A stretch of 53,872 nucleotides of DNA, taken from NCBI GenBank assembly GCA_903906315.1, contig CAIVJW010000067.1, positions 1 through 53,872 of the forward strand, in the 5' to 3' direction. This document shows, piece after piece, positions 12,986-33,644 of the stretch. Each line of letters starts with the position of its first letter. Positions within the stretch are counted from its first letter, which is position 1. Source of the stretch: an uncultured delta proteobacterium (GTDB taxonomy: Bacteria > Myxococcota_A > Polyangia > Polyangiales > Polyangiaceae). Under the pieces are notes generated by a model, which saw only the letters and a list, made by a program, of their open reading frames with translations, was not told the origin of the DNA and made no database searches. The position numbers and the translations under genes were made by a program.

Positions 12986-13015
12986 GGCTCTTTCGCGGGC
13001 TCTCCGGAGGGTCGC

Positions 13016-13024
13016 AGACCTAGC
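13016..13024 (-). promoter_or_regulatory. -10-like element GCTAGGTCT
   Basis: Minus strand GCTAGGTCT (with preceding T, extended TGCTAGGTC) about 30 nt before the ATG of the fusion gene. Likely promoter of the three-gene molybdenum-hydroxylase operon. No clear -35. Confidence 0.35.
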
Positions 13025-13134
13025 ACGAGCGCGCATTCACCGCGATGGCCCGAGCGATCCGGCGCGCGCAAAGCCACGACGCGGCGCGCCGCGACGGGCA
13101 GCCCGAGCGCGTCATTCGTGATCCCCGAAACGCT

Positions 13135-19053: not shown

Positions 19054-19998
19054 ATGGACCTGGGATCCGCGATCGTGGCTCTGATGATGGTCGTGCTCCT
19101 CAAGCCGGCCGTCATGATCCTCGGCCTGCGCCTCGTGCTCCGCCTGCGGCCGGCGATCGGACGCGCGCCGTCGAGGTCGCCGGTCTACGCGATCGCGCCC
19201 GAGGACCTCGCCGACGCCCGCGTGGTCTTCTGGGCGCTCGCCGTCTTCTTCGCGTCCGAGTGCATGTGCGGCGTCGAGGTCTACGTCGTCGTCGGGTCGT
19301 CGCCGGTCTTCTCGGCGCTGCACGCGTCGCTCTCGGCGCTCGGGATGGGCCTCACCGGCCTCGCGGTCGCGCGCGTGGTCGACCGGAAGGTCCTGCGCTA
19401 CGCCGATCCGGGCTGCGCCGCGGCCCGCCTCTGCCGCGGCTGCACGGTGCAGACACCCCTCGGCTGCAAGCTCCGGGGCGTGCTCGAGCTCGCCTCGGGC
19501 CTCGCCGCCTTCGCGGCGATCGCGCCCTTCTTCGCATCGGTGAAGGAGATGGCCGCCGACACCGGCCGGTGGGAGCTCCCCTTCCCGAGCCTCAACGCGT
19601 GGTACGACGCGCACGTCGTGCCGCGCCTGGTCGCCACGCTCCCTGGCTACTCGCCGCACGGCGTCGGCTTCTCGATGCAGGCCTCCGAGCTGGTGCTCGA
19701 ATACCGGGTGATCCCGGGCCTCGCGCTCGCGCTCTTCGTCGTCGCGTTCGTGGCCGCACGCGCGCGGCGCGAGGCGGTCGCCGTGCGGGTGCTCGCGTTC
19801 GGCCTCGGCCTCGTCGTGTACTCGCTCCTCGAGCTCGTGCTCTACGACGTGACGGGCGACGTGATCCTCGGTTCGCTCGGTCACGAGCTCACCGAGCTCT
19901 GGTTCGTCGTGTTCGCGGGCGAGGCGCTGCGCCGGACGTACGGCGCGGAGGCCGCCCCGCCCCGCCCGCCTCAGGCGCTCCGCGTGTTGGCCGCGTGA
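19054..19998 (+). CDS. Multi-spanning membrane protein of unknown function (first gene of the radical-SAM/FAS cluster)
   Basis: 314 residues with about six predicted transmembrane helices. The first is at the very N-terminus (AIVALMMVVLLKPAVMILGL); the last ends near residue 290. It has two Cys-containing segments: ECMCGVEVY at the start of a helix, and CAAARLCRGCTVQTPLGCK, with four Cys in a ~18-residue loop, possibly metal- or cluster-binding. A second loop (~160-210) is predicted non-cytoplasmic. The ATG has a GAGGCG-type ribosome-binding site. Its stop overlaps the start of the next SDR gene (GTGA), tying it to the cluster. No family recognised. Confidence 0.7.
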   Translation: MDLGSAIVALMMVVLLKPAVMILGLRLVLRLRPAIGRAPSRSPVYAIAPEDLADARVVFWALAVFFASECMCGVEVYVVVGSSPVFSALHASLSALGMGLTGLAVARVVDRKVLRYADPGCAAARLCRGCTVQTPLGCKLRGVLELASGLAAFAAIAPFFASVKEMAADTGRWELPFPSLNAWYDAHVVPRLVATLPGYSPHGVGFSMQASELVLEYRVIPGLALALFVVAFVAARARREAVAVRVLAFGLGLVVYSLLELVLYDVTGDVILGSLGHELTELWFVVFAGEALRRTYGAEAAPPRPPQALRVLAA

Positions 19999-20738
19999 CG
20001 GCCCGCCTCGCCGGCAAGCGCGCGCTCGTCACGGGGGCGTCGCGCGGCCTCGGGCGCGCGATCGCGCTGCGGTTCGCCGAGGAGGGGGCGCGGGTCGCGT
20101 TCACGTACTCGCGCGACGAGGCCGGCGCCGCCGAGACCCTCCGCGCGCTCCAGCACGGCGGGCGCGAGGCGCGGGGGACGCGCTGCTCGGTGCTCGACGC
20201 GCGCGGCACCGAGGCCCTGGTCCGCGAGATCGAGCGCGACTGGGGCGGCCTCGACATCCTCGTGAACAACGCGGGCGTGAGCCAGAACCTGCCGCTCGCG
20301 CTGCTCGAGGAGGAGGACTGGGACCACGTGATGGACGTGAACGTGAAGGGCACGTTCCTCACGTCGCGCGCCGTCGTGCGCGGCATGATCCGCAGGAAGG
20401 GCGGCGTCGTCCTCAACATCGGATCGCTCGCAGGCGTGCGGATGATCGAGGCGCCGATCCACTATTTCACCAGCAAAGCTGCGATCAAGGGCTTCACCGA
20501 GGCGCTCGCGAAGGAGGTCGCGCACCACGGGGTCCGCGTGCTGTGCCTCGCTCCGGGCCTGCTCGAGGACGGCCTCGGCAAGAACCTGCCCGATCACCGG
20601 CTCGCCGCCTACCTGAAGCACACCGCGCTCCGCCGCGTGGGCACGCTCGACGAGGTCGCGCGCGTGGCCGCGTTCCTCGTCTCCGACGCGAACGGCTACA
20701 TGGTCGGCGAGACCGTCGTCGCCGACGGGGGGCTGTAG
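19995..20738 (+). CDS. SDR oxidoreductase, FabG-like (SDR-A copy 1)
   Basis: 247 residues. Classical SDR: TGASRGLGRAIA cofactor loop, NNAGVSQ, active-site Ser in NIGSLAG and YFTSK (Tyr-x3-Lys), terminal ADGGL. FabG-like enzymes reduce 3-oxoacyl-ACP with NADPH. It is strikingly similar to the gene at 25235-26056; both share LPLALLEE, RGMIRRK, APIHY and CLAPGLLEDGLGKNLP, so they are cluster-internal paralogues. GTG start overlaps the preceding stop by 4 nt; the next gene begins 4 nt downstream. Confidence 0.88.
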   Translation: MTARLAGKRALVTGASRGLGRAIALRFAEEGARVAFTYSRDEAGAAETLRALQHGGREARGTRCSVLDARGTEALVREIERDWGGLDILVNNAGVSQNLPLALLEEEDWDHVMDVNVKGTFLTSRAVVRGMIRRKGGVVLNIGSLAGVRMIEAPIHYFTSKAAIKGFTEALAKEVAHHGVRVLCLAPGLLEDGLGKNLPDHRLAAYLKHTALRRVGTLDEVARVAAFLVSDANGYMVGETVVADGGL

Positions 20739-20742
20739 GGCG

Positions 20743-21498
20743 ATGGCGATCGGCCGAGCGCCGGCGCGCTGCCTCGTCTTCGGCGGATCGGGCGCGCTCG
20801 GGGGCGCCGTGTGCGAGGCCCTCGCCGCCGCGGGCGCGCGCGTCGCGCTCACCTACCACGCGAACCGAGCCGCGGCCGAGGCGCTCGCGGCCCGCCTCCC
20901 GGGGGCGATCCCGCTCGCCGTCGACGTCGCGTCGGTCGCGGAGGTCGACCGCGTCGTCGACGCCGCCTCCGACGCGCTCGGCGGGATCGATGCGTTCGTC
21001 CACGCGGCCGCGATCGGCGTCGCGGTCGCCTGCGAGGGCGCGGCGTCGAGCCACCGCCTGCCGCAGATCGACGAGGCCGCCTTCGACCGCCTGATCGCGG
21101 TGAACCTCAGGAGCGCGTTCTTCGCGGTGCGGCGAGTCGCCCCGATCATGGCCGCGGACGGCGGCGGCAGCGTCGTCCTCGTGGGATCCGTCGACGGCGT
21201 GAAGGCCATCCCGTCGCCGGCGCACTACGCGGCCTCGAAGGCGGGCCTCGGCGGCTTCGTGCGAGCCGCGTCGAAGGAGCTCGGCGAGGCCCGCGTGCTG
21301 CTCAACGTCGTCGCGCCCGGCGTGCTGGAGGCGGGCCTCTCGCGCCTGATACCGGAGAACCTGCACCGCGAGTACGAGAAGCACTGCGGCCTGCGCCGCC
21401 GCGGCCGCCTCGCCGAGATCGCCGCGACGTGCGCGTGGCTCGCGCTCGAGAACACGTACGTCACCGGCCAGACGATCCTGATCGATGGCGCCCTCTGA
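20743..21498 (+). CDS. SDR oxidoreductase (SDR-B copy 1)
   Basis: 251 residues. The cofactor loop is divergent, FGGSGALGGAV instead of TGxxxGxG. HAAAIGVA replaces the usual NNAG. The active site is intact: GSVDG (Ser) and YAASK. It ends LIDGAL. Paralogue of the gene at 26056-26799, with which it shares GGSGA, VGSVDG/LGSVDG, APGVL.AGL.RL.P and YVTGQ. It probably forms a pair with the SDR-A protein before it, as heteromeric or successive reductases; that pairing is inference from the duplicated order. Confidence 0.85.
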   Translation: MAIGRAPARCLVFGGSGALGGAVCEALAAAGARVALTYHANRAAAEALAARLPGAIPLAVDVASVAEVDRVVDAASDALGGIDAFVHAAAIGVAVACEGAASSHRLPQIDEAAFDRLIAVNLRSAFFAVRRVAPIMAADGGGSVVLVGSVDGVKAIPSPAHYAASKAGLGGFVRAASKELGEARVLLNVVAPGVLEAGLSRLIPENLHREYEKHCGLRRRGRLAEIAATCAWLALENTYVTGQTILIDGAL

Positions 21499-22078
21499 CG
21501 CGGTCGCGCCCCCGCGCGCGGGCCGCGATCGCGCGACGGTCCGGATCGGCGCCGTCGCGCTCGCCGCGTGGGCTTTCCACGCCGCGGATCAGCTGCGCCA
21601 GCACCACCCGGAGAACCTGCTCTGGTGCTGCCACGTCGGCGGCCTCGGCGTCGCGATCGGCCTGATCTTGCGCGCGCCGCGCGTCCTGGCGCCCGCCGCG
21701 TTCCTCTCGCTGCTCGGCGTCGTCATGTGGCCGATCGACGTCATCGTGACCGGCGACCTCGAGCCGAGCTCGGCCGTGGCGCACGTCGCCGGCATCGCGC
21801 TCGGCCTCGCCGGGATCCGGCGGCTCGGCCTGCCGCGCGGGACCTGGCTGCGCGCCGGGGCGACCCTCTTCGCGCTGACCGTGACGGCTCGCCTCGTCAC
21901 GCCGCCCGCGGAGAACGTGAACCTCGCGTTCGCCGTGCACCCGAGCCTCGCGGGGCACGTTCAATCCCACGGGATCTACGTCGCGGGCGTCGGCGCGCTG
22001 GTGCTGATGGGTTTCTTCGCGCTCGATCGCGCGCTGCGGGCGACCGGAGTCCGCACCGCCGGCCGGCACTTCCATTGA
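21485..22078 (+). CDS. Small integral membrane protein of unknown function
   Basis: 197 residues, about five to six transmembrane helices after a short polar N-terminus. His-rich segments sit near helix ends (FHAADQLRQHHPEN, WCCHVGG, AHVAG, VHPSLAGH, SHGIY), which could bind metal, haem or a quinone-like ligand. The ATG lies 14 nt inside the end of the SDR-B gene, so translation is probably coupled; there is no strong ribosome-binding site. Unique to the first half of the duplicated module. No family recognised. Confidence 0.65.
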   Translation: MAPSDAVAPPRAGRDRATVRIGAVALAAWAFHAADQLRQHHPENLLWCCHVGGLGVAIGLILRAPRVLAPAAFLSLLGVVMWPIDVIVTGDLEPSSAVAHVAGIALGLAGIRRLGLPRGTWLRAGATLFALTVTARLVTPPAENVNLAFAVHPSLAGHVQSHGIYVAGVGALVLMGFFALDRALRATGVRTAGRHFH

Positions 22079-22155: not shown

Positions 22156-23709
22156 ATGACGATCTGCGCACCGTGCGCGCCGCCGAGGACGTCCTCCGAT
22201 CACGTCTACTTCGGGTCGACGCGGAGCCTTTGCGCGACCTGCAAGCGCGGCGTCGAGGCCAAGATCCAGTTCGAGGACGACCGCGTCTACCTGGCCAAGC
22301 ACTGCCCGGATCACGGCCCCGAGCGCGTCCTCGTCGCGTCGAGCGTCGCCTGGTACCTCGACGCGCTCTCCTTCGTCGCGCCGAGCACGCCGCCGGGCGG
22401 CCCCGTGCGCGCGGTCGCGCACGGCTGCCCGTTCGACTGCGGCCCGTGCGCCTCGCACCAGCAGCGCGTGGCGCTGCCGGTCATCCCGATCACGAGCGCG
22501 TGCAACCTCGACTGCCCCATCTGCTACACGGTCAACAAGAACGACGGCGCCCACGCGATCTCGCGCGACGGCTTGCAGCGGATCCTCGACCACCTCCGCG
22601 CGCAGCACGGCGACCTCGACGTCATCAACTTCACGGGCGGCGAGCCCACGCTCCACCCGGAGCTGCCCGAGCTGCTGCGCATGGCGCGGCGCGCGGGGTT
22701 CCGCCGCCTCACGGTGTCGACCAATGGCCTGCGCCTGACCGACGAGGCCTACGTGCGCGAGCTCGCCGAGGTCGACGCGCGCGTCGTGCTGTCGCTCGAC
22801 ACCTTCGACGACGAGGTCGATCGGGCGCTGCTCGGCGCGACCACCGTGAAGACCAAGCTCCGCGCCCTCGACCTGCTCGAGGCGCACGACGTGACGACCA
22901 CGATCCTGCCGGCCGTCGCCGCGGGCTACAACGACCGCGAGGTGCCCGCGCTGCTCGATGTCGTGCTGCGGCGGCCCAACTGCTGCTCGCTCGAGCTGCA
23001 CACGCTCGCGTTCACCGGGCAGGGCGGCGCGGGCTTCCCGCGCGCGGCGCGCGTGACGACGCCCGACCTCCACCGCATCCTCGACGAGGCGACGGGCGGG
23101 CGCCTCACCGGCCTCGACTTCGTCCCGTCACCGCTCGCGCACCCGCACTGCTACTCGATCGCGTACCTGCTCCTCCTCGACGACGCCGACGGCGTGCGGC
23201 GGCCGGGCCTCGCGGGCGGCTGGGTGCCCTTCACGCGCTTCATGCCGCGCGCGCGCCTCTTCGCGCTGCTCGCGGACTCGATCTACCTCGAGCCGCGCGA
23301 GAGCGTGGAGCGCGCGCTCTCCGAGGCCATCGACGCCGTGTGGTCCGACCCCGACGCCCACCCGGAGGCGGACCGCATCCTCGCGACCCTCAAGCGCCTC
23401 GTGCGGCAGCTCTTCCCGTCCGAGGGGCCGATCTCGCTCGAGGCGCGGCGAGCGATCGCCGAGCGCGCGAGCAAGGCGATCTACATCCACTCGCACATGG
23501 ACGAGGAGACGTTCGACGTGTCGCGCATCCTGCGCTGCAGCGTCGGCGTGCCCGAGGAGGACGGGTCGAACGTCCCGACGTGCGCGTACAACGTGCTCTA
23601 CCGCGAGCGCGACCCGCGGTTCGCGAGCGGCGAGGCCCTCGCGCGAGCCCGCGACGCGTGGCCCGCCCCCCAGGGCGCACCCCGCCGCTCGCTGCCGATC
23701 GCCCGCTGA
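22156..23709 (+). CDS. Radical-SAM protein, tetraether-lipid-synthase (Tes/MSS, COG1964) type, copy 1
   Basis: 517 residues. An N-terminal rubredoxin-like site has Cys26/Cys29 (LCATCK) and Cys50 (KHCPDHG). CPFDCGPC (91-98) is an extra cluster motif. The radical-SAM motif CNLDCPIC gives Cys116/120/123, followed by INFTGGEPT (SAM-binding GGE) and STNGLR. C-terminal Cys residues in LRCSVGVP and PTCAYN presumably bind a further cluster. This arrangement matches archaeal Tes (MJ0619 group), which joins lipid tails through sp3 C-C bonds using several [4Fe-4S] clusters and one rubredoxin-like iron. ATG at 22156 with GGGGAG upstream. 20 nt before its paralogue. Confidence 0.85.
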   Translation: MTICAPCAPPRTSSDHVYFGSTRSLCATCKRGVEAKIQFEDDRVYLAKHCPDHGPERVLVASSVAWYLDALSFVAPSTPPGGPVRAVAHGCPFDCGPCASHQQRVALPVIPITSACNLDCPICYTVNKNDGAHAISRDGLQRILDHLRAQHGDLDVINFTGGEPTLHPELPELLRMARRAGFRRLTVSTNGLRLTDEAYVRELAEVDARVVLSLDTFDDEVDRALLGATTVKTKLRALDLLEAHDVTTTILPAVAAGYNDREVPALLDVVLRRPNCCSLELHTLAFTGQGGAGFPRAARVTTPDLHRILDEATGGRLTGLDFVPSPLAHPHCYSIAYLLLLDDADGVRRPGLAGGWVPFTRFMPRARLFALLADSIYLEPRESVERALSEAIDAVWSDPDAHPEADRILATLKRLVRQLFPSEGPISLEARRAIAERASKAIYIHSHMDEETFDVSRILRCSVGVPEEDGSNVPTCAYNVLYRERDPRFASGEALARARDAWPAPQGAPRRSLPIAR

Positions 23710-23729
23710 CGCGCCCACGGAGGCCCGCG

Positions 23730-25238
23730 ATGCCGAAGCTCCCCCTCGTCCGGCCCGAGCCCACGATCCTCCCCGCCGCGGCGGGGCAGGAGGTCTTCCA
23801 CTCGTATTCCCGCGCGCTCTGCCCGACCTGCAAGCGCGCGGTCGACGGCGCGCGCGTGATCCGCGACGGCCGGGTCTTCCTCCGCAAGCAGTGCCCGGAG
23901 CACGGGCGGTCGGAGGCGCTGATCAGCGGCGACGCGGCGTGGTTCCTGCGATCGCTGACGTACGCCAAGGAGGGATCGATCCCGCTCGGCCACTCCATGC
24001 CCGTCGCGCGCGGCTGCCCGGACGACTGCGGCCTCTGCCCCGATCACGAGCAGCACTCCTGCCTGCCCATCCTCGAGATCACGAACCACTGCGACCTCGA
24101 CTGCCCGATCTGCATCGTCGAAAACCGGCACAACTACGACATGAGCCGCGAGGAGCTCGGCCGCATCCTCGACGGCCTCGTCGAGAAGGAGGGGCGCCTC
24201 GAGACCATCAACCTCTCGGGCGGCGAGCCGACCACGCACCCCGATTTTTTCGCGATGCTCGACCTGTGCCTCGCGAGGCCGGAGATCGCGCGCGTGTCGG
24301 TGTCGACGAACGGCCTGCGCTGCGCGAGCGATCCCGCGTTCTGCGACGAGCTCGCGCGGCGCGGCGTCTACGTGAGCCTGCAGCTCGACGCGCTCTCGAG
24401 CCCCGCGCTCCGCACGCTGCGCGGCGCGGGCGACCACCGCGCGGCCCGCGAGCGCGCCCTCGACCACCTGGAGCGCGCCGGCGTGCGCACGACGATCGTG
24501 TCGACGGTCGCGCGCGGCGTGAACGACCACCTCGTCGGCGAGTGCGTGAAGCTGCTCTACGAGCGCGACTTCATCCTCTCGCTCATGTTCCAGCCGGCCG
24601 CGTACACCGGCACGGGCGGCGCGCACTTCGGGCCCCACGACCCGCTCGACGTCGTCACCATCCCCGACGTCGTGCGCGCGGCCGAGGAGCAGAGCGGCGG
24701 CCTGCTCCGGCGAAGCGACTTCCTGCCCCTGCCCTGCTCGCACCCGAGCTGCTTCGCGCTCACGTACCTGCTCGGCACCGACACGGGCTACATCCCGTTC
24801 CCCCGCTTCCTCGACCTCGATCGCTACCTCGAGCTCTTGACCAACCGCGGCACCATCCGCCCCGACGCCGAGTTCGAGGACGCGATCAAGTCGACCGTCG
24901 ACGAGCTGTGGACGAGCAGCGCGCAGGTGCCGGACGCCGACAAGATCCTCCGCAGCCTGCGGCGCGCGATCTTCCTCATGTACCCCGAGGACCGCGCGCT
25001 CGAGCTCGAGGAGCGGCTGCGCGTCGGCGAGCGCCTCGTGAAGACGATCTTCATCCACGGCTTCATGGACGCCCACACCTTCGAGCTCGAGCGCGTGAAG
25101 AAGTGCTGCACGCACTACGCGCTTCCCGACGGGCGGCTGATGCCCGGCTGCGCGTACAACAACCTGTACCGCGGGCGCGATCCGCGCTTCGCGGGGCCCA
25201 TCGGCCCGCCGCGTCGCGCGGCCGGCGAGGCCACGTGA
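23730..25238 (+). CDS. Radical-SAM protein, tetraether-lipid-synthase (Tes/MSS, COG1964) type, copy 2
   Basis: 502 residues, same architecture as the preceding gene: LCPTCK (31, 34) and QCPEHG (55), CPDDCGLC (96-103), radical-SAM CDLDCPIC (121, 125, 128), INLSGGEPTTH, VSVSTNGLR and C-terminal KKCCTHY ... PGCAYNNLYRG. It lacks the PGLAGG insertion seen in copy 1 near the SIAYLLLLDD region and has a longer N-terminal lead. The two copies are clearly diverged, so they probably act on different substrates or steps. ATG at 23730 with ACGGAGG ~7 nt upstream; the stop overlaps the next SDR start (GTGA). Confidence 0.87.
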   Translation: MPKLPLVRPEPTILPAAAGQEVFHSYSRALCPTCKRAVDGARVIRDGRVFLRKQCPEHGRSEALISGDAAWFLRSLTYAKEGSIPLGHSMPVARGCPDDCGLCPDHEQHSCLPILEITNHCDLDCPICIVENRHNYDMSREELGRILDGLVEKEGRLETINLSGGEPTTHPDFFAMLDLCLARPEIARVSVSTNGLRCASDPAFCDELARRGVYVSLQLDALSSPALRTLRGAGDHRAARERALDHLERAGVRTTIVSTVARGVNDHLVGECVKLLYERDFILSLMFQPAAYTGTGGAHFGPHDPLDVVTIPDVVRAAEEQSGGLLRRSDFLPLPCSHPSCFALTYLLGTDTGYIPFPRFLDLDRYLELLTNRGTIRPDAEFEDAIKSTVDELWTSSAQVPDADKILRSLRRAIFLMYPEDRALELEERLRVGERLVKTIFIHGFMDAHTFELERVKKCCTHYALPDGRLMPGCAYNNLYRGRDPRFAGPIGPPRRAAGEAT

Positions 25239-26056
25239 CCGCGCCGTACGAGGCTCTCGCGCGCGCGCCGCGGCTCGCGGGCAAGGCCGTGATCGTCACG
25301 GGCGGCAGCCGCGGGCTCGGGCGCGCGATCGCGATCGCGGCCGCGCGGGACGGCGCGCGCGTCGCGTTCTCCTACGCGCGCGACGAGGCCGCCGCGCGCG
25401 AGGCCGTCGGCGCGATCGAGGCCGCGATCGCCGACGCCGAGCCTCGCCTCCGCGCGGCCGGCGCCCCCCCGTCGCCGGGCCCGCTCGCCCTCTCGTTTCG
25501 CGCGCGCGCGTTCGACGTGGCCGAGACGGACGCGATGGTGCGCGCCGCCGAGCAGGCCTTCGGCGCCATCGACGTGCTCGTGAACAACGCCGGCGTGTCG
25601 CAGGCGCTGCCGCTCGCGCTCCTCGAGGAGGACGACTTCGACCACGTGATGCGCGTCAACGTGAAGGGCGCCTTCGTCACCTCGCGCGCCGTGCTCCGCG
25701 GCATGATCCGCCGCAAATCCGGGGTGATCGTGAACATCGGATCGCTCGCGGGCGGCCGCATGCTCGACGCCCCGATCCACTACGCGACGAGCAAGGCCGC
25801 GCTCGAGGGCATGACGCGCGCGATGGCGAAGGAGATGGCGCGCCACGGCGTGCGCGTCGTGTGCCTCGCGCCCGGGCTGCTCGAGGACGGCCTCGGCAAG
25901 AACCTGCCACCCCACCGCCTCGCCGACTACCTCCACCACTGCGCGCTCGGGCGCGTCGGCACCTTCGCCGAGGTGGCCGAGGCCTGCGTGATGCTGGCGT
26001 CGCCCGAGGCGAGCTACCTGACGGGCGCCGTCGTCGCGATGGACGGGGGCGTCTGA
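25235..26056 (+). CDS. SDR oxidoreductase, FabG-like (SDR-A copy 2)
   Basis: 273 residues. TGGSRGLGRAIA, NNAGVSQ, NIGSLAG (Ser), YATSK, terminal MDGGV: complete SDR active site. Compared with its paralogue at 19995 it carries a ~14-residue N-terminal lead and a Pro/Ala-rich insertion at ~75-90 (AAGAPPSPGPLAL) in the loop before the second Rossmann half. GTG start overlaps the radical-SAM stop; its own stop overlaps the next ATG by one base (TGATG). Confidence 0.87.
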   Translation: MTAPYEALARAPRLAGKAVIVTGGSRGLGRAIAIAAARDGARVAFSYARDEAAAREAVGAIEAAIADAEPRLRAAGAPPSPGPLALSFRARAFDVAETDAMVRAAEQAFGAIDVLVNNAGVSQALPLALLEEDDFDHVMRVNVKGAFVTSRAVLRGMIRRKSGVIVNIGSLAGGRMLDAPIHYATSKAALEGMTRAMAKEMARHGVRVVCLAPGLLEDGLGKNLPPHRLADYLHHCALGRVGTFAEVAEACVMLASPEASYLTGAVVAMDGGV

Positions 26057-26799
26057 TGGCGCCGCGGCGGCCGGCGTGCGTGGTGGTCGGCGGATCGGGC
26101 GCGGTGGGCGGTGCGATCGCCGAGGCGCTCGCAGCGCGCGGCGCCCGGGTGGGGATCACGTTCCACCGCGGCGAGGCGCGGGCGCGCGAGATCGCGGCGC
26201 GGCTCGACGGCGCCGTCGCGCGGCCCCTCGACCTCTGTGACGCCGCGGCGATCGAGCCGGCGATCCGCGAGCTCGCCGCGGAGCTCGGCGGGCTCGACGC
26301 CCTGGTGCACGCGGCGGCGGTGCCGTCGGCCGCGGCGACCGAGACGTGGGACCGCCTCGCGGATCTCGACCCCACCGCACTGCGGCGCCTCTTCGCGGTG
26401 AACGTCGAGAGCGCGCTCCTCTGCGCGCGCGCCGTCGACGCGATCACGGCGGGCGGCGTGGCCACGCGGAGCCTCGTGTTCCTCGGGTCGGTCGACGGGC
26501 TGAAGCCGCTCCCGACCGCCGCGGCGTACGCGGCCAGCAAGGGCGCGATCGCCGCGATGGTCCGGGCGCTGGCCAAGGAGCTCGGCCCGCGGGGGGTGCG
26601 CGTGAACGCCGTCGCGCCGGGCGTGCTCGACGCCGGCCTGACGAGGCTCGTGCCCGACGACGTGCGCCGCGAGTACCGGAAGCACGCGGCGCTCGGGCGC
26701 TTCGGCACCTGCGCCGAGGTGGCGCGCCTCGTCGCGTGGCTCTGCCTGGACGACACCTACGTGACGGGTCAGTCGATCCCCCTCGACGGCGGCTTGTGA
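26056..26799 (+). CDS. SDR oxidoreductase (SDR-B copy 2)
   Basis: 247 residues. GGSGAVGGAI cofactor loop (same GGSGA deviation as its paralogue at 20743), VHAAAVP, FLGSVDG (Ser), YAASK, SIPLDGGL. Probable NADPH-dependent reductase acting together with the SDR-A protein encoded just upstream. Start ATG within TGATG. Confidence 0.86.
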   Translation: MAPRRPACVVVGGSGAVGGAIAEALAARGARVGITFHRGEARAREIAARLDGAVARPLDLCDAAAIEPAIRELAAELGGLDALVHAAAVPSAAATETWDRLADLDPTALRRLFAVNVESALLCARAVDAITAGGVATRSLVFLGSVDGLKPLPTAAAYAASKGAIAAMVRALAKELGPRGVRVNAVAPGVLDAGLTRLVPDDVRREYRKHAALGRFGTCAEVARLVAWLCLDDTYVTGQSIPLDGGL

Positions 26800-26824: not shown

Positions 26825-28192
26825 ATGACCGCTCGCAATCACCCGGTGGTGGAGGCCTACGCCGCCCACGTCAGCCCAGCCTTCGTGAAGCTCCTCGGCG
26901 CGCTCGGCTACGGGCGCGTCTTCGTGCGCGCGAAGGGCACGCGCCTCTGGGACCACGACGGCCGCGAGTACCTCGATCTCCTCGCCGGCTTCGGCTCGAT
27001 GAACCTCGGCCACAACCCGGAGGCCGTGATCGAGGCGGTCCGCGCCGCGCTCGACGACGGCGCGCCGTCGATCCTGCACGTCGGCCCGCACGGCCCCGCG
27101 GCCGACCTCGCCGCCGATCTCGCGCGCCTCGCGCCCCCGCTCACGCGCTGCCTGTTCTCGACGTCGGGCGGCGAGGCCGTCGAGAGCGCGATGAAGCTCG
27201 CGCGCGCCGCGACCGGGCGGACCGCGATCGTGTACGCCGACGGCGGCTTCCACGGCACCGGGCTCGGGTCGCTCTCGGTCATGGGCAGCCGGCGCATGCG
27301 CGCGCCGTTCGAGCCGCTCGTGCCCGACTGCCACGCCGTCGCGTTCGGCGACCTCGACGCGCTCCGCAAGGCCCTGCGCAAGCGGCCCGTCGCGGCCGTC
27401 TTGCTCGAGCCGATCCAGGTCGAGGCCGGCGTCGTCGTGCCGCCGGCGGGCTACCTCGCCGAGGCGCGCGCGCTCTGCCACGCGCACGGCGCGCTCTTCG
27501 TCCTCGACGAGGTGCAGACGGGCCTCGGTCGCACCGGCGCGCTCTTCGCCTACCAGCACGACGACGCCGTCCCCGACGTGCTCGTGCTCGGCAAGGCCCT
27601 CGGCGGGTCGATCCTGCCGGTGTCGTGCGCGCTCACGACGCCGGCGATCCACGACCGCGCCTACGGCCGCGTCGACCGCTTCGACCTGCACGGCAGCACC
27701 TTCTCGGGCTACGCGCTCGGCTGCGCCGCCGCGCGCGCCACCTTGCGCGCCATCGCGGACCACGGCCTCGTCGACGCCGCCCGCGCTCGCGGCGAACGCC
27801 TGCTCCTCGGCCTGCGGTCGCGCCTCGCCGGCCACCCGTTCGTGCGCGGCGTCCGCGGCCGCGGCCTGATCGTGGGCATCGAGCTCGGCCCCACCGCGAA
27901 GGGCGGCGTGCTCTCGCGGCTGCTGCCCGGCGTCGTCGCGGGCGTGTCGCGGCAGGTCTTCGGCCAGTGGCTCGCGCTGCGGCTGCTCGAGGCCGGCTTC
28001 GTCGCGCAGCCCGCCTCGAGCCAGTGGAACGTGCTGCGCATCGAGCCCGCGCTCACCGTGACCGACGACGAGATCGATCGCGCCATCGACGCGATCGCCA
28101 CGATCCTGGGGGAGTACCGCGATCTCGGCGCGCTGCTCGCCGACGCGGGCGCGCGGCTCGGCGCGCAGGCGATCGGCGGCTTCGGGTTCTGA
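26825..28192 (+). CDS. Class III PLP-dependent aminotransferase
   Basis: 455 residues. Fold-type I class III features: SGGEAVESAMKLAR (phosphate-binding Gly), FHGTGLGSL, EPIQVEAGV, LDEVQTGLGRTG with Asp228 for the pyridine N, LGKALGGSILP with Lys257 for the Schiff base, and HGSTFSG. The group includes putrescine, ornithine and beta-alanine/omega-amino-acid transaminases. In this cluster it could transfer an amino group onto an aldehyde or ketone made from the acyl chain, which is inference. ATG with GGAAGG 8 nt upstream; the next start is 1 nt after its stop. Confidence 0.9.
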   Translation: MTARNHPVVEAYAAHVSPAFVKLLGALGYGRVFVRAKGTRLWDHDGREYLDLLAGFGSMNLGHNPEAVIEAVRAALDDGAPSILHVGPHGPAADLAADLARLAPPLTRCLFSTSGGEAVESAMKLARAATGRTAIVYADGGFHGTGLGSLSVMGSRRMRAPFEPLVPDCHAVAFGDLDALRKALRKRPVAAVLLEPIQVEAGVVVPPAGYLAEARALCHAHGALFVLDEVQTGLGRTGALFAYQHDDAVPDVLVLGKALGGSILPVSCALTTPAIHDRAYGRVDRFDLHGSTFSGYALGCAAARATLRAIADHGLVDAARARGERLLLGLRSRLAGHPFVRGVRGRGLIVGIELGPTAKGGVLSRLLPGVVAGVSRQVFGQWLALRLLEAGFVAQPASSQWNVLRIEPALTVTDDEIDRAIDAIATILGEYRDLGALLADAGARLGAQAIGGFGF

Positions 28193-28193
28193 C

Positions 28194-29210
28194 GTGCTCG
28201 CGCGCCTCGGCAAGGACGCCGCGTTCGCCGAGGCGGTGCTGCGGAGGCAGCCGTTCTCGGCGCTCGTGCAGGTCACGAACCGCTGCAACCTGCGCTGCTC
28301 GTTCTGCGATTTCTGGCGACACCCCGCCCCGCCGCGCGACGAGCTGACCGTCGCCGACTACGAGCGCGTCGCCGACGAGCTGGCCGTTCACGGCTGCTTC
28401 CTCGTCTCGATCGAGGGCGGAGAGCCGCTCTTGCGCGACGATCTCCCCGGCATCGTGCGCGCCTTCGCGCGCGGGCACTTGCCGGTGCTCTTCACGAGCG
28501 GCTGGCACGTGACGCCGGCGGTCGCGCGCGAGCTCTGGGCCGCGGGCCTGCACCAGGCGGGCGTCTCGATCGACTTCCCCGACGCCGCGCGCCACGACGC
28601 CAAGCGGGGCGCGCCCGGGACGTTCGACCGCGCGTGGAGCGCGGTCGACACGCTGCGCGACACCGCGCCGCGGGGCCCGAAGCAGGTCTTCGTGATGACC
28701 GTGATCATGGCGGCGAACCACGAGGCGATGGAGACGATGCTGCTCCAGAGCCGCGCGCGCCGGGTCGGCCACCAGGTGACGCTGATCAACGTGTCCGGCA
28801 CGCGCCGCGCGCACGGCGAGGGCGACGCGCTGCCGCCGCCCGAGGCCGGCCCGGCGATGGTCGCGCTCCACCGGCGCTACCCGCACCTCGCGTTCTTCGA
28901 GGACTACTTCGCGCGAATGGAGAGCTTCCTCTCGGGCGGCGCGATGCCGACCTGCACCGCCGGCCAGCAGGGGCTGAACCTCGACCACCTCGGCAACGTC
29001 GCGACCTGCATCGAGACGATCGGATCGCCCGTCGGCAACGTGCGCACCGAGCCGGTCGGCTCCCTGCTGGCGAAGCTCCGAGCGAAGCGCGCCGAGGTCG
29101 CGGGCTGCCAGGACTGCTGGACGGCGTGCCGCGGCTTCCAGCAGGCGCTCCGCGACGGCGGCACCCTCGCGGCGTGGCGCGAGCTCGGCTCGCGGATGCG
29201 ACCGTACTGA
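28194..29210 (+). CDS. Radical-SAM protein with SPASM-like C-terminal cluster domain
   Basis: 338 residues. Radical-SAM motif CNLRCSFC (Cys31, 35, 38), GGEPLLR, TSGWHV. The C-terminal half has Cys residues in PTCTAGQQGLNLDHLGNVATC and GCQDCWTACRGF, the arrangement of SPASM/twitch domains that bind auxiliary [4Fe-4S] clusters. It differs from the two Tes-like proteins in length and motif. SPASM enzymes modify peptides, sugars or small molecules; the substrate here is unknown. GTG start one base after the aminotransferase stop. Confidence 0.87.
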   Translation: MLARLGKDAAFAEAVLRRQPFSALVQVTNRCNLRCSFCDFWRHPAPPRDELTVADYERVADELAVHGCFLVSIEGGEPLLRDDLPGIVRAFARGHLPVLFTSGWHVTPAVARELWAAGLHQAGVSIDFPDAARHDAKRGAPGTFDRAWSAVDTLRDTAPRGPKQVFVMTVIMAANHEAMETMLLQSRARRVGHQVTLINVSGTRRAHGEGDALPPPEAGPAMVALHRRYPHLAFFEDYFARMESFLSGGAMPTCTAGQQGLNLDHLGNVATCIETIGSPVGNVRTEPVGSLLAKLRAKRAEVAGCQDCWTACRGFQQALRDGGTLAAWRELGSRMRPY

Positions 29211-29269: not shown

Positions 29270-29746
29270 GTGCGCTACTTCCTGATCGATCGCGTCACCG
29301 ACGTCGTGCCCGGCGAGTCGGCGCGCGGCATCAAGAACGTGACCCTGACCGACGAGGTCCTGCACGACCACTTCCCCGACTTCCCGATCCTGCCGGGCGC
29401 CCTGATCGTCGAGGCGATGGCGCAGCTCGCGGGCTTCTTGCTCGAGGTCTCCGAGAACGCGCCCGGAAAGCCGATCGTCCGCGCCCTCCTCGGCCAGATC
29501 AAGAGCGCCAAGTTCACCACGCCCGCGGAGCCGGGCGACCAGATCGAGGTCGTCGTGCGGCTCGTCCGCGGGCTCGACACGGCGGCCGAGGTGCACGCCG
29601 AGGCGCTCGTCGAAGGGCGCCGCATCGCGCGCGCGCAGCTCACGTTCCTCCTGCGACGCGTCGACTCCGAGCGCGTGCATGCGCAGCGGCGCGCGCTCTA
29701 CCACCTGTGGACGCGCCGGCTCGGCAAGGAGATCCCGATCCCGTGA
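29270..29746 (+). CDS. FabZ/FabA-like hotdog-fold 3-hydroxyacyl-ACP dehydratase
   Basis: 158 residues. The core motif HDHFPDFPILPGALIVEAMAQLAG contains the catalytic His34 and Glu48 of FabZ. It removes water from 3-hydroxyacyl chains on a carrier protein. The C-terminus (~130-158, YHLWTRRLGKEIPIP) is longer and more basic than in housekeeping FabZ. GTG start without a Shine-Dalgarno sequence; the stop overlaps the next start (GTGA). Confidence 0.88.
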   Translation: MRYFLIDRVTDVVPGESARGIKNVTLTDEVLHDHFPDFPILPGALIVEAMAQLAGFLLEVSENAPGKPIVRALLGQIKSAKFTTPAEPGDQIEVVVRLVRGLDTAAEVHAEALVEGRRIARAQLTFLLRRVDSERVHAQRRALYHLWTRRLGKEIPIP

Positions 29747-30609
29747 TCGCGCTGACGGGGGCCGGCCACGTGCTCGGCGAGCAGGCCGATCCGACGCCGT
29801 TCCTGAAGGTGCGCAAGAGCCGCAAGTTCATGGGCCCGCAGGACGACCTCCTCGTCGTCGCCGCCGGGCGCGCGATCGCGGCGGCCGGCCTCGCGGGGGC
29901 GCCCCTCGGCGAGCGCGCGGGCCTCTACGTCGCGGTCGGCCACATCCCGTTCCGCGAGGAGGACATCGACCCGGTGCTCGCCGCGTCGACCGACGATCGC
30001 GGCGACTTCGATCTGCGGCGCTTCGGCGCAGCCGGGTTCTTGCGCGCGCACCCGCTGCTCACGTTTCGCTGCCTCCCCAACATGCCCGCGTACCACGTGT
30101 CGGCGAATTTCGACGTCCAGGGCCCCTACCTCGTCACGTACCCCGGGGCCGGCCAGCTCCACGCGGCGATCGAGGAGGCGGTGGCCGCTATCGACGAGGG
30201 GCGCGTCGACGTGGCACTCGTCGGCGCCGTCGCCCAGCAGCGAAACTTCCTCGTGGAGCACCATTTCGCGCGCGTCGATCCCCCGGTGCCGGCGAGCGCG
30301 CTGCGCGACGTCGCTGCGCTGATCGTGCTCGAGGCCGAGGGCCGCGCGCGCGATCGCGGGGCGCGCGTCCTCGCCACGCTCGAGGCTGCGACGTCGTGGT
30401 ACGAGCCATTCGACGTGCTCCACGAGGGGCGCGCAGCGCGCGAGTCGGTGGGCGGCTTCGCGAGCGACGCCGACGCCGGCGAGCTCGGCCCGGCGCGCCT
30501 ACCGACCGCCCTCTCGATCGCCGCCGCGAGCGGCTTTCGCGGCGTGATCCGCCACGCGCTCGCCGGGCGCGACGGCGTGTCGGCCGAGAGCCGCTGGGTG
30601 TGGCCGTGA
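29743..30609 (+). CDS. Ketosynthase-like protein without catalytic Cys (chain-length-factor / Ketoacyl-synt_2 type)
   Basis: 288 residues. The thiolase-fold N-terminal half is recognisable: LYVAVGHIPF, then CLPNMPAYHVSANFDVQGPYLVTYPGAGQLHAAIEEAV aligns with the ketosynthase nucleophile-elbow region. Where ketosynthases have TACSSG it has TYPGAG (133-137), so no nucleophile. The His residues of the C-terminal half are also missing. It resembles the short ketosynthase-like proteins of aryl-polyene clusters. Likely a non-catalytic partner of the ketosynthase encoded next. GTG start, overlaps on both sides. Confidence 0.8.
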   Translation: MIALTGAGHVLGEQADPTPFLKVRKSRKFMGPQDDLLVVAAGRAIAAAGLAGAPLGERAGLYVAVGHIPFREEDIDPVLAASTDDRGDFDLRRFGAAGFLRAHPLLTFRCLPNMPAYHVSANFDVQGPYLVTYPGAGQLHAAIEEAVAAIDEGRVDVALVGAVAQQRNFLVEHHFARVDPPVPASALRDVAALIVLEAEGRARDRGARVLATLEAATSWYEPFDVLHEGRAARESVGGFASDADAGELGPARLPTALSIAAASGFRGVIRHALAGRDGVSAESRWVWP

Positions 30610-31841
30610 CGCGCCCGCGCCATCGCGTCGTCGTGACCGGCATGGGCGTCGTCTGTCCGCTCGGCGGGTCGGTCGCGGCGCTCGCCGAGGGCCTGTTCGC
30701 GGGGCGATCCGGCATCCGCACGATCTCGGTCTTCGACGCGAGCACGCTGCCGACCCGGATCGCCGGCGAGTCCGAGCTGCCCCCCGACGCGCCGCTCGGC
30801 GACCGCAAGATCGCCTTCGCGATCGAGGCCGCGCGCCAGGCGATGCGGGCGGCGTGCGCGCGGGGAGGACGCCCCGCGATCGGCCGCGACGCCGTCGTCT
30901 CGATGGGCGTCGGGCTCGAGTTCTTCTCGGCTCAGCACCTGATCGACCGGCGTCGTCCCGGCTTCGCGCTGCCGACGTCGATCGAGGCTCGGCTCTCGTT
31001 CCTCCAGACGCCCTCGGACCTCTGCGTGCACCTCCTCGCGCGCGAGCACGGCCTGCACGCGCCGCCGATCGTGCACGTCTCCGCCTGCGCCGCGGGCGCG
31101 GACGCGATCGGCCACGCCTACCGGCTCATCGCGAGCGGCAGGCGGCGCGCGGCCCTCGCGGGCGGCACCGACTCGATGGTGAACCCGCTCGGCGTCGCCG
31201 GCTTCTGCGCGCTGCGCGCGACGAGCACGCGCAACGACGAGCCGGATCGCGCCTCGCGCCCGTTCGACGGCGACCGCGACGGCTTCGTGATGGGCGAAGG
31301 CGCCGGCGCGATCGTGCTCGAGCGCCGGGACGACGCCCTCGCGCGAGGCGCGACGATCCACGCCGAGGTCTCGGGCTTCGGCTCCTCGCTCGACGCGCAC
31401 GGCATCAGCGAGCCGCACCCCGAGGGCCGCGGCGCAGCGCAGGCGATCCGGCGCGCGATCGACGACGCCGGCCTCACCCCCGAGGACATCGGCGCCATCA
31501 ACGCGCACGGCACGGGCACCCCGAAGAACGACCCCGTCGAGACGCTCGCCATCAAGCGCGTCTTCGGCGACCGCGCGCGATCCATCCCGATCTCGGCGAC
31601 GAAGTCGATGATCGGCCACCTCATCTCCGCGGCGGGCGCGGTCGAGGCCATCGCGGCGATCCTCGGCCTCGAGCGCCAGGCCGTGCACCCGACGCGAAAC
31701 CTCGAGTGCCCGGACCCCGCCTGCGACCTCGACTACGTCCCCGGCGCGGCGCGCGCGCACGCCCACCGGCACGTCCTGTCCACCTCGTACGGCTTCGGCG
31801 GGCACAACGCGGCCATCATCCTGTCGAGGGCGGACTCGTGA
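30606..31841 (+). CDS. Beta-ketoacyl-ACP synthase (FabF-like, KS-alpha)
   Basis: 411 residues, full FabF length. The catalytic triad is present: Cys161 (VSACAAGADAIG), His301 (NAHGTGTPKND) and His338 (ATKSMIGHL). GTDSM, EGAGAIVLE and STSYGFGGHNAAI are also present. It performs decarboxylative chain extension on a carrier protein. Preceded by its Cys-less relative and followed, with a 4-nt overlap, by an SDR, the order of type II polyketide/aryl-polyene systems. Confidence 0.92.
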   Translation: MTRPRHRVVVTGMGVVCPLGGSVAALAEGLFAGRSGIRTISVFDASTLPTRIAGESELPPDAPLGDRKIAFAIEAARQAMRAACARGGRPAIGRDAVVSMGVGLEFFSAQHLIDRRRPGFALPTSIEARLSFLQTPSDLCVHLLAREHGLHAPPIVHVSACAAGADAIGHAYRLIASGRRRAALAGGTDSMVNPLGVAGFCALRATSTRNDEPDRASRPFDGDRDGFVMGEGAGAIVLERRDDALARGATIHAEVSGFGSSLDAHGISEPHPEGRGAAQAIRRAIDDAGLTPEDIGAINAHGTGTPKNDPVETLAIKRVFGDRARSIPISATKSMIGHLISAAGAVEAIAAILGLERQAVHPTRNLECPDPACDLDYVPGAARAHAHRHVLSTSYGFGGHNAAIILSRADS

Positions 31842-32587
31842 CCGCGCTCGCGGGCCGCGCCGTCGCGGTGACCGGCGCGAGCCGGGGCCTCGGGCGCGCG
31901 ATCGCGATCGCCGCCGCGCGGTCGGGAGCGCGCGTGGGCGTCGCCTACCGGTCCTCGCGCGAGGCCGCCATCGAGGTCTGCCGCGCGATCGAAGCGGCCG
32001 GCGGCGAGGCGATCCCCTTCGCGATCGACGTCGCCTCCCCCGACGACGTCCGGCGCGCGGTCGGCGCGATCGACGACGCCATCGGGGGCCTCGACGGCTG
32101 GGTGTCGAACGCCGCGGTCCACGTCGCTGGCCCGCTCGTCACGGCCGACACCGACGCGCTCCGGCGCCTGGTCGACACGAACGTGCTCGGCCCGATCGTC
32201 TGCGCGCGCGAGGTGATCGCGCGGATGCTCCCGCGGCGCCGCGGCGTCGTCGTGCACGTCGGGTCCGTCGCGGCGAGCCGCCCGTCGCGCGGACAGGCGG
32301 CGTACGCAGCCACCAAGGGGTCGCTCGAGGCGCTCACGCGCGCGATCGCCGTCGAGTACGGGCGCAAGGGGCTACGCGCCGTGTGCGTGCGCCCGGGCGC
32401 CGTCGACACGGACATGCTCGCCGCGACGCGGGCCCTCGCCGAGGACGAGATCCTGGCGCGCATTCCGATGCGCCGCATCGCGCGCCCCGACGAGGTCGCG
32501 CGCGCGGTGGTGTTCGCGCTCGGCGACGACGCGAGCTACGTGAACGGCGCGGTCATCGACGTGGACGGAGGCTACGCGGCGTCATGA
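31838..32587 (+). CDS. SDR oxidoreductase, FabG-like (third type)
   Basis: 249 residues. TGASRGLGRAIA, SNAAVHVAG, GSVAASRPSRGQAAYAATK (Ser, Tyr, Lys), terminal DVDGGY. Not a member of either duplicated SDR pair in this cluster. Closest in pattern to 3-oxoacyl-ACP reductase and the natural reductase for the ketosynthase just upstream. GTG start overlaps the ketosynthase stop; its stop overlaps the next ATG (ATGA). Confidence 0.88.
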   Translation: MTALAGRAVAVTGASRGLGRAIAIAAARSGARVGVAYRSSREAAIEVCRAIEAAGGEAIPFAIDVASPDDVRRAVGAIDDAIGGLDGWVSNAAVHVAGPLVTADTDALRRLVDTNVLGPIVCAREVIARMLPRRRGVVVHVGSVAASRPSRGQAAYAATKGSLEALTRAIAVEYGRKGLRAVCVRPGAVDTDMLAATRALAEDEILARIPMRRIARPDEVARAVVFALGDDASYVNGAVIDVDGGYAAS

Positions 32588-33207
32588 TCGTCGACGCGAT
32601 GCGGGCGCGGCGCAGCGTGCGGCGCTTCAAGGCGGACGCGGTGCCGCGCGCGCTGGTCGTGCGCGTCCTCGAGGCCGCGGTGACCGCACCCTCGGCGAGC
32701 AACAAGCAGCCGTGGCGCTTCTTCGTGGTCGAGACGCGGGCGACGATCGCGCGCATGGCGGACGCCGTGCGCGAGGCGACCGGGCGGATCGAGGCGACCG
32801 TGCCCGAGGAGGGCCGCGCCGCGTTTCGCGCCTACGGCGACTACTTCACCCGCTTCGAGGGCGCGCCGTGCGTGATCGTGCCGGCGTTCCGTGGCCACGC
32901 GGTCCTCTCGCACCTCGTCGCGGCGACCGCGTCGCCGGAGGACCTCGCGATCGTGGCCGCGATGGAGCGAGACGGCGCCCTCGTCGGCGCATCGCTCGCG
33001 CTGATGAGCCTCCTGCTCGCGGCGCACGAGGCCGGGCTCGGCGCCTCCGCGATGACGGGCCCGCTCGTCGCCGCGCCCGCGATCCGTGCGATCCTGGGCG
33101 TACCGGCCACCTTCGGCCTCGTCGCGCTCGTCCCGATCGGCTTCCCCGACGAAGCGCCCGCGCCGACGGACCGCAAGCCCCTCGACAACGTGGTCCGCTG
33201 GATCTGA
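32584..33207 (+). CDS. Nitroreductase-family flavoprotein
   Basis: 207 residues. FMN-binding motifs RARRSVRRFKADAVP and APSASNKQPWRFFVV are at the N-terminus; ASLALMSLLLAAHEAGLGASAM and VALVPIGFPDE follow further on. A member of the FMN-dependent nitroreductase superfamily. In a biosynthetic cluster it could reduce or oxidise a C=C or C=N bond, but the natural substrate cannot be read from sequence. Overlaps the upstream SDR (ATGA). Confidence 0.88.
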   Translation: MIVDAMRARRSVRRFKADAVPRALVVRVLEAAVTAPSASNKQPWRFFVVETRATIARMADAVREATGRIEATVPEEGRAAFRAYGDYFTRFEGAPCVIVPAFRGHAVLSHLVAATASPEDLAIVAAMERDGALVGASLALMSLLLAAHEAGLGASAMTGPLVAAPAIRAILGVPATFGLVALVPIGFPDEAPAPTDRKPLDNVVRWI

Positions 33208-33221
33208 CCCTGAGAGCGCCC

Positions 33222-33644
33222 ATGACGAACGAGCCCATCGCCCCCGAGGTCCTCTGCGCCGTCCGCCGCTGCGTCGCCGACAGCCTCGCCGTGCCGGAAG
33301 CCGAGGTGCTGCCCGAGAGCCGCCTCATCGACGATCTCGGCGCCGACTCGCTCGATTTCGTCGACATCGTCTTCGCGCTCGACCGCGCGCTCGACGTGCG
33401 CGTGCGCGAGACCGAGTTCAACTTCCTGACCCGGCTCGACTTCTCGTCGCCCGAGATCATGAAGGGCGCGCACCTCGCCGAGCCGGTCCTCGCGCGCCTC
33501 GAGAGCTGGCTCCCCGCGCTTCGCGAGGTCGCCGACCGCGCCCGCGTGACGCCTCGCGGCCTGTTCTCGATGATCACGATCGAGTCGCTGTGCCTCGCCT
33601 GCCAGCACGCGATCGCCGCGCGCGACGCCGCGAAGGCGCGCTGA
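33222..33644 (+). CDS. Acyl-carrier-protein-like protein with C-terminal extension
   Basis: 140 residues, against ~80 for normal ACP. Residues 1-85 have the ACP fold, with the phosphopantetheine site DDLGADSLDFVDI (Ser43). Residues ~85-140 form an extra helical segment with two Cys (SLCLACQHA) and a Phe-Ser-Met-Ile-Thr stretch, not part of standard ACP. Last gene of the cluster, 14 nt after the nitroreductase. It would carry the growing chain for the adjacent FabZ/KS/SDR enzymes. Confidence 0.87.
   Translation: MTNEPIAPEVLCAVRRCVADSLAVPEAEVLPESRLIDDLGADSLDFVDIVFALDRALDVRVRETEFNFLTRLDFSSPEIMKGAHLAEPVLARLESWLPALREVADRARVTPRGLFSMITIESLCLACQHAIAARDAAKAR

Follow-up and report, generated by a model that had tools for sequence, protein, structure and literature searches.

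What might two adjacent radical S-adenosylmethionine (SAM) genes that resemble archaeal tetraether synthase (Tes) do in a bacterium? The question is raised by contig CAIVJW010000067.1 of assembly GCA_903906315.1, a stretch of 53,872 nt from an uncultured delta proteobacterium that is, by inference, a relative of Sorangium; this whole stretch is called the window below. Archaeal Tes joins the ends of phytanyl chains. The two genes lie on the + strand, gene 1 (rSAM1 type) at 22156..23709 (ATG 22156 to TGA 23709, 517 amino acids) and gene 2 (rSAM2 type) at 23730..25238 (ATG 23730 to TGA 25238, 502 amino acids), and structural models show both proteins to have the Tes fold with the residues for all four metal sites. 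The answer that we favour, at somewhat less than an even chance, is that the pair are partner Tes-fold enzymes that form carbon-carbon bonds on acyl chains from their own cluster, which resembles a type II fatty acid synthase (FAS-II).

Gene models, fold and family

Both genes are complete open reading frames (ORFs) separated by 20 nt (23710-23729), and their proteins share 38% identity, in line with an earlier note on this DNA that described two adjacent, diverged genes at that spacing. The genome's coding GC-position signal is present in both reading frames, and this signal, together with the recurrence of the cluster among the 75 loci compared, rules out a chance or wrong frame. The top PDB sequence match of both proteins is 7tol, GDGT-MAS/Tes of M. 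jannaschii (MjTes), with E values of 3.3e-50 (gene 1) and 3.1e-62 (gene 2), and both match the Pfam families Radical_SAM (E 6.6e-27 and 1.1e-22) and Zn_ribbon_HMPTM (E 3.8e-16 and 6.4e-16). The earlier note had also recognised rubredoxin-like, extra-cluster, CxxxCxxC and C-terminal motifs, and the corresponding residues were found in both proteins, namely, those of the rubredoxin-like site (C26, C29, C50 and H53 in gene 1; C31, C34, C55 and H58 in gene 2), the N-terminal cluster (C91, C95, C98 and H101; C96, C100, C103 and H106), the radical-SAM cluster (C116, C120 and C123; C121, C125 and C128) and the C-terminal cysteines (C332, C461 and C476; C341, C459 and C474). As these motifs are kept in large homologue sets, they are not due to chance. 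The C-terminal motif reads RCSVGV in gene 1 and CC..Y in gene 2 and Tes.

The AlphaFold models (mean predicted local distance difference test score of 90.9 for gene 1 and 84.1 for gene 2) match the Tes structure 7TOM with a Z of 46.2 over 445 residues (root mean square deviation, rmsd, 2.8) and of 49.1 over 440 residues (rmsd 2.9), respectively. The next-best folds are MoaA-like (Z 20.6 and 18.7), in a comparison that included no TrsS structure and does not exclude families other than Tes by their absence. A loss of the auxiliary metal sites, which the earlier note had named as a reason to give up its proposal, was not seen at the level of residues and fold: both proteins keep the site residues and the Tes fold.

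The filing of the pair as Tes, also made in that note, is not supported. With the NCBIfam Tes model NF045702 the proteins score 196.9 (gene 1) and 251.5 bits (gene 2), below the cut-off of 450, and the clades described below exclude MjTes. TrsS (NF045646) is the highest-scoring NCBIfam model for both, with 215.7 and 265.4 bits and a cut-off of 490 that is likewise not reached. The TrsS and Tes models both match every one of the 35 proteins in the gene-2 alignment, with best E values of 1.3e-86 (TrsS) and 6.3e-85 (Tes), and these scores do not decide between the families. Tes proper was therefore ruled out by its sub-cut-off score, the tree position and the replacement of Met439, and TrsS by its score below the cut-off. 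The pair has the Tes fold and makes up two clades of its own. Bacterial homologues with an unknown role are mentioned in the Tes structure paper (PMC9433317), and Zeng et al. listed 456 bacterial Tes homologues, suggesting roles in branched glycerol dialkyl glycerol tetraether (brGDGT) formation (PMC8941075).

Descent and active-site residues of the pair

A FastTree phylogeny of 136 sequences placed 123 of them in one clade (support 1.0) that splits into two sister clades, the gene-1 type (n=83, support 1.0) and the gene-2 type (n=40, support 0.977). MjTes, one haloarchaeal, one Mycolicibacterium and other proteins lie outside, and IQ-TREE, run on 38 of the 136 sequences, recovered the same clades with ultrafast bootstrap values of 100, 100 and 87. 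The interpretation in the earlier note is supported in part, namely in the Tes fold with its metal-site residues, the divergence of the two proteins and the ketosynthase cluster; in the phylogeny that it had proposed as a check, MjTes, the one confirmed archaeal Tes included, falls outside both clades. The trees omit loci L035 and L073 (same records as L021/L034 and L022), and hits with frames shorter than 380 residues were dropped, among them some in L078, L094, L100 and L108 and those of the gene-1 type in L097 and L105. A bacterial membrane-spanning lipid synthase, MSS, was reportedly described by Sahonero-Canavesi et al. in 2022; a plasmid collection (9 records) yielded outgroups and no named MSS. 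By these trees the duplication behind the two clades is old and predates the split between the two cluster versions (see below).

Within single loci, 36 same-strand combinations of gene 1 and gene 2 were identified, 32 of them at ≤1.5 kb and 25 at ≤100 nt, and gene 1 precedes gene 2 in 30 of the 32 closer pairs. Over these 32 pairs the distance matrices of the two proteins correlate at 0.965, a value reached in none of 2000 permutations. This mirror-tree comparison shows that the pair has been inherited jointly; the correlation is not evidence of contact. Joint inheritance fits partner enzymes, yet would be expected for any genes of one cluster. The two paralogues were always of different type in the pairs examined. 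A Deltaproteobacteria metagenome-assembled genome (MAG) carries a third Tes-like protein directly upstream of its pair (L046:8400-9782), which is outside both clades and has Met at the 439 column. A separate Tes-fold group (L028, L029, L030, L031, L032 and L111), from related genomes and Persicobacter, carries Ser in place of Cys455 and either Asp or Glu in place of Cys470, and its C-terminal cluster, if any, must therefore be held differently.

In MjTes numbering, with the ligands of the rubredoxin and N-terminal sites taken from PMC9433317, three rubredoxin cysteines are kept across the 123 sequences, gaps aside; His36 is found in 71/83 gene-1-type and 26/40 gene-2-type proteins (otherwise Cys or Asp), and the two window proteins have it. 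C73, C77 and H83 are kept in 123/123 and C80 in 122/123, and the radical-SAM CxxxCxxC as well as C338, C455 and C470 are invariant (123/123). For H83 and the C-terminal cysteines a ligand role is presumed from their conservation. The C-terminal cluster of Tes has a labile ligand, Met439, which is invariant in 1000 archaeal homologues, as is Tyr459 (PMC9433317). In the clade of the pair the Met439 column holds His in 123/123 sequences, and outside it Met in 7/13; the codons concerned are 23488..23490 (His445, gene 1) and 25056..25058 (His443, gene 2), both on the + strand. One pairwise alignment (gene 2 with PDB Tes) set a gap near this column, whose assignment is nevertheless safe because its distance to C455 is 16 residues in 136/136 sequences. 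Gene 1 of the window has a further histidine, His447, two residues past His445 and in place of Phe. This second His is present in 83/83 gene-1-type proteins; in the gene-2 type its place is taken by Phe (34) or Tyr (6), and in the other 13 proteins by Phe.

The two types also differ at residues near the MjTes active site, where Arg210, Gln268, Ser271 and Phe106 contact 5'-deoxyadenosine and Arg275 contributes to closure (PMC9433317). Arg210 is kept in 0/83 gene-1-type, 40/40 gene-2-type and 13/13 other proteins, Gln268 in 12/83, 40/40 and 12/13, Arg275 in 1/83, 4/40 and 13/13, and Tyr459 in 0/83, 40/40 and 1/13 (MjTes itself). Gene 1 of the window accordingly lacks all four, with Val at position 459, and gene 2 keeps Arg210, Gln268 and Tyr459 and has lost Arg275. 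Since 12 of the 13 relatives outside the clades are also without Tyr459, gene 1 is not exceptional in having lost it, and the idea that the loss marks inactivation was dropped. The MjTes variants Y459F, Y459L and M439A remain active (PMC9433317), and because Tes tolerates these changes, the residue swaps are compatible with Tes chemistry. Judged by its residues, gene 1 is the shifted member of the pair. A decayed pseudo-enzyme is not favoured for gene 1, as the cluster cysteines are kept throughout its clade.

The cluster around the pair and its distribution

A search of named genomes, using alignment A1 of gene-1-type proteins and two peptide patterns taken from that type alone, yielded 121 confirmed stretches, the best 80 of which gave 75 loci. 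The scan over-represents the gene-1 type and is uninformative on the gene-2 type without gene 1; as many loci stop at contig ends, cluster counts are lower bounds. Among these best 80 stretches are two Sorangium cellulosum strains, Polyangium strains, four Massilia species and many MAGs, labelled as Myxococcales, Deltaproteobacteria, Planctomycetota, Verrucomicrobia, Riflebacteria, Elusimicrobia, Rokubacteria, Acidobacteria and others, labels that can be wrong. The pair itself was seen in loci labelled as Myxococcota, Planctomycetota, Verrucomicrobia and others. Cultured hosts are found in Sorangium, with the pair, and in Polyangium and Massilia, with the gene-1 type; the loci of the latter two show no gene 2 and place gene 1 beside genes for short-chain dehydrogenases/reductases (SDRs), acyl carrier protein (ACP) or aminotransferase. 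Of 371 Myxococcota genomes, the host's own included, 31 have a match to A1 with an E value of at most 1e-100, and in 10 of these a pair of such matches adjoins on the same strand.

When the window proteins were compared with the 75 loci, a recurring set emerged of gene 1, gene 2, two SDRs, a small protein, FabZ, a chain-length-factor-like protein (CLF), a ketosynthase (KS), a further SDR, a nitroreductase and an ACP; an aminotransferase and a third radical-SAM gene belong to it only sometimes. The cluster of So ce26, located at about 6.509-6.519 Mb of NZ_CP012673.1, and that of So0008-312 are compact 11-gene runs. A diverged version occurs in verrucomicrobial and phycisphaeral loci, several of which also encode a FabA-like protein together with a hexapeptide transferase. 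The pair is associated with KS/CLF, dehydratase and ACP genes: KS/CLF was seen in 16 of the 29 named loci with a pair within 1.5 kb, and of the 14 flanked by 5.5 kb or more on each side, 12 showed KS/CLF, 11 a dehydratase and 10 an ACP. Any KS, dehydratase or ACP was present in 37 of the 68 named loci with a gene-1-type protein. Genome G014 has a gene-2 type with KS genes about 18 kb from its gene-1 type, so partners can lie beyond the reach of the loci. A plasmid of Mycolicibacterium vanbaalenii (L110:7302-12342) encodes a Tes/TrsS relative with 38.6% identity to gene 2, whose neighbours are CcdA, a disulfide oxidoreductase, another radical-SAM gene and a methyltransferase, without KS genes.

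In the window the pair sits in a run of genes that all lie on the + strand and span roughly 20.0 to 33.6 kb. It is preceded by two SDR-like genes, SDR_A1 (19995..20738) and SDR_A2 (20743..21498), and by a gene for a small hydrophobic protein (21485..22078) that has no Pfam match and is conserved in the cluster. Downstream follow SDR_B1 (25235..26056; about 60% identity to SDR_A1), SDR_B2 (26056..26799; 48-50% identity to SDR_A2), a class III aminotransferase (26825..28192; best NCBIfam model PigE with 411.9 bits, cut-off 850) and a third radical-SAM protein, rSAM3 (28194..29210), in which the Tes N-terminal domain was not found. The run continues with a FabZ-like 3-hydroxyacyl-ACP dehydratase (29270..29746, start codon uncertain), the CLF-like partner (29707..30609), in which the active-site Cys is absent (VTYPGAGQ) and the KS C-terminal domain was not found, and a FabF-type KS (30606..31841) with the Cys-His-His motifs VSACAAG, HGTGTP and KSMIGH. 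Family matches identify the FabG-like SDR_C (31838..32587) and a nitroreductase-family protein (32584..33207), and an ACP with a DSL motif and a C-terminal extension (33222..33644) closes the run. Among the five SDR genes the family scans covered SDR_C, and the other four are named by similarity, SDR_A1 and SDR_A2 by that to SDR_C. The doubled SDR pair (19995-21498 and 25235-26799) flanks both radical-SAM genes; most of the other clusters examined have one such pair.

By motif and family match the run has the make-up of a KS-CLF type II system, with a Cys-bearing KS beside a Cys-less partner, a ketoreductase, a dehydratase and an ACP. The earlier note had placed the pair next to ketosynthase genes; these do belong to the same same-strand cluster, but begin about 4.5 kb downstream (29707). 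No dedicated enoyl reductase was recognised among the family-scanned proteins, four SDRs being outside the scan; the nitroreductase or an SDR could reduce double bonds, and the chain could be saturated or a polyene. An assignment of the ACP to the AcpXL type was rejected, as PDB and NCBIfam scores give no separation from ordinary ACPs. The genome has 19 ketoacyl-synthase-family matches in 8.79 Mb, two of them in this run. Four such matches lie close together elsewhere in it (L119, G000:C200:14000-33000), a stretch in which a search found no Tes-like gene.

Two further arrangements were noted on the - strand of the window. One ORF (11297-13036) fuses an HMGL-like (DRE-TIM) domain to a CoxS-type [2Fe-2S] domain pair, an unusual fusion, and adjoins genes for the large (8944-11295) and medium (7921-8922) subunits of a molybdenum hydroxylase. 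At 13112-14996, a PAD_porph (agmatine deiminase-type) gene adjoins a carbon-nitrogen hydrolase gene, possibly a putrescine route, with no link to the cluster shown.

Possible reactions and likeness to known systems

On the reading that we favour, the KS/CLF, dehydratase, ketoreductase and ACP would first build a long acyl chain. The radical-SAM centre of each enzyme would then abstract a hydrogen atom from an unactivated carbon of this chain, on the ACP or after transfer to a lipid, and the substrate radical would be stored on the C-terminal [4Fe-4S] cluster, as in Tes, here probably His-ligated. Tes couples sp3 carbons via a cluster-bound intermediate (PMC9433317). The carbon-carbon bond would be completed between two chains or, by ring closure, within one, both of which fit, and the SDR, aminotransferase and nitroreductase enzymes may tailor the chain afterwards. 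Gene 2 is probably the more Tes-like catalyst because it keeps the adenosine contacts of Tes and Tyr459, and gene 1 probably acts at another position or step, since its adenosine contacts are replaced and an HxH lies beside its C-terminal cluster. Two successive couplings or a heterodimer, both suggested in the earlier note, may be envisaged. Membrane-spanning lipids are a conceivable product. Tentatively, and with a smaller chance than an acyl-chain coupling by this pair, the clusters could form an undescribed cross-phylum class in which a KS/CLF builder feeds a Tes-derived two-enzyme radical synthase, with His for Met, that bonds carbons on ACP-bound chains. In this way two chains might be welded or carbocycles closed, which would amount to ladderane-like chemistry beyond the anammox bacteria.

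Several points weigh against the proposed coupling. The His swap and the loss of Arg210 and Arg275 may signal a changed reaction. On a polyene chain, coupling between sp3 carbons would not be the obvious reaction. Gene-2-type proteins were seen in 34 of the 68 named gene-1-type loci, the gene-1 type often lacking a gene-2 type within the stretch covered, and KS/CLF, dehydratase and ACP are all missing from L053 and L071, two of the 14 pair loci with long flanks. The Tes fold is also found in other settings, as on the plasmid of M. vanbaalenii, beside CcdA and a methyltransferase. It is unlikely, but a serious contender, that the pair performs other chain chemistry with the same fold (dehydrogenation, sulfur insertion or alkyl or methyl transfer) and no carbon-carbon coupling. 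Both proteins score slightly higher with TrsS, a family of unknown function, than with Tes, His replaces the labile Met in all 123 sequences, and MjTes can yield a sulfur-bearing lipid under limiting SAM (PMC9433317). However, the TrsS cut-off is missed just as that of Tes, and the structural match to Tes extends over the whole length, TrsS being absent from the structures compared.

The fold and metal-site residues would also suit a true MSS that joins the fatty acyl tails of glycerolipids, and Mss matches were reported, at loose thresholds, in 12 of 347 Black Sea Myxococcota MAGs (PMC11868695). This is nevertheless improbable, as KS/CLF and ACP genes belong to the cluster itself, the proteins scanned included no recognisable glycerolipid acyltransferase or ether-forming enzyme and the paralogues always differ within the pairs seen. 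For PF06050, a proxy for Ger/PlsA-type ether genes, the genome has two adjacent, unassigned matches on contig C96. That gene 1 serves gene 2 as a partner subunit with little or no catalytic activity is quite improbable: the close pairing and the lack of Arg210 (83/83) and Gln268 (71/83) in the gene-1 type, both kept in 40/40 of the gene-2 type and contacting 5'-deoxyadenosine in MjTes (PMC9433317), are set against CxxxCxxC and C-terminal cysteines kept in 83/83 and the frequent occurrence of the gene-1 type without gene 2 nearby, and the absence of Tyr459 says little, as it is missing in 12 of 13 outside relatives too. Very improbable is a ladderane-like pathway outside anammox bacteria, in which the pair would build strained carbocycles on a polyene chain. 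The Kuenenia candidates for ladderane synthesis pair the adjacent radical-SAM genes kuste3342 and kuste3343 with FabZ, FabG, ACP, FabF and a non-canonical FabF (PMC2649909, PMC4790861), a likeness at the level of printed gene lists, but published opinion favours a cobalamin-dependent radical-SAM enzyme for ring formation (PMC13142503) and, according to passages of PMC9902471, no ladderanes are reported outside anammox bacteria. The same source describes antiSMASH-labelled ladderane clusters of unknown function in Myxococcota and Verrucomicrobiota MAGs.

A description of the pair or cluster was not found in the open-licence full-text literature, most subscription papers lying outside this search. 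To the knowledge of the Tes structure authors, the coupling of two unactivated sp3 carbons is unseen in nature outside methylation-type bond formation (PMC9433317). If the coupling reading is true, a bacterial pair with the Tes fold and metal-site residues, a clade-defining ligand swap and a portable cluster would open such chemistry to experiments in culturable bacteria. Moreover, homology screens for Mss and Tes use E 1e-30 and 30% identity (PMC11868695, PMC13274423), and such loose screens might count this separate clade as producers of membrane-spanning lipids, which bears on the source tracing of brGDGT climate proxies.

Among known systems, the closest likeness is that to Tes/GDGT-MAS (MJ0619, PDB 7TOL and 7TOM), with which the pair shares the whole fold, the rubredoxin-like site, the N-terminal cluster with its His, CxxxCxxC and three C-terminal cysteines. 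It differs in scoring under the family cut-off, forming separate clades, having His for Met439 and lacking Arg275 in both proteins; gene 1 additionally lacks Arg210, Gln268 and Tyr459, and the genes stand in tandem inside a KS/CLF cluster. MSS is reported to share the catalytic architecture of Tes (PMC13274423); compared by description, it occurs with Ger/PlsA genes and acts on glycerolipids, whereas the window pair is in a KS/CLF-ACP cluster. TrsS (NF045646) is the top-scoring model for both proteins, yet below its cut-off of 490. The ladderane candidates kuste3335-3352 of Kuenenia, as printed, also join an adjacent radical-SAM pair to FabZ, FabG, ACP, FabF and a non-canonical FabF, but include phytoene desaturases and methyltransferases. 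The general class is that of the KS/CLF type II (highly reducing) acyl-chain clusters. With these the window has in common a FabF-type KS, a Cys-less KS-like partner, a dehydratase, a ketoreductase and an ACP, to which it adds tandem Tes-fold enzymes, SDR pairs, a class III aminotransferase and a nitroreductase.

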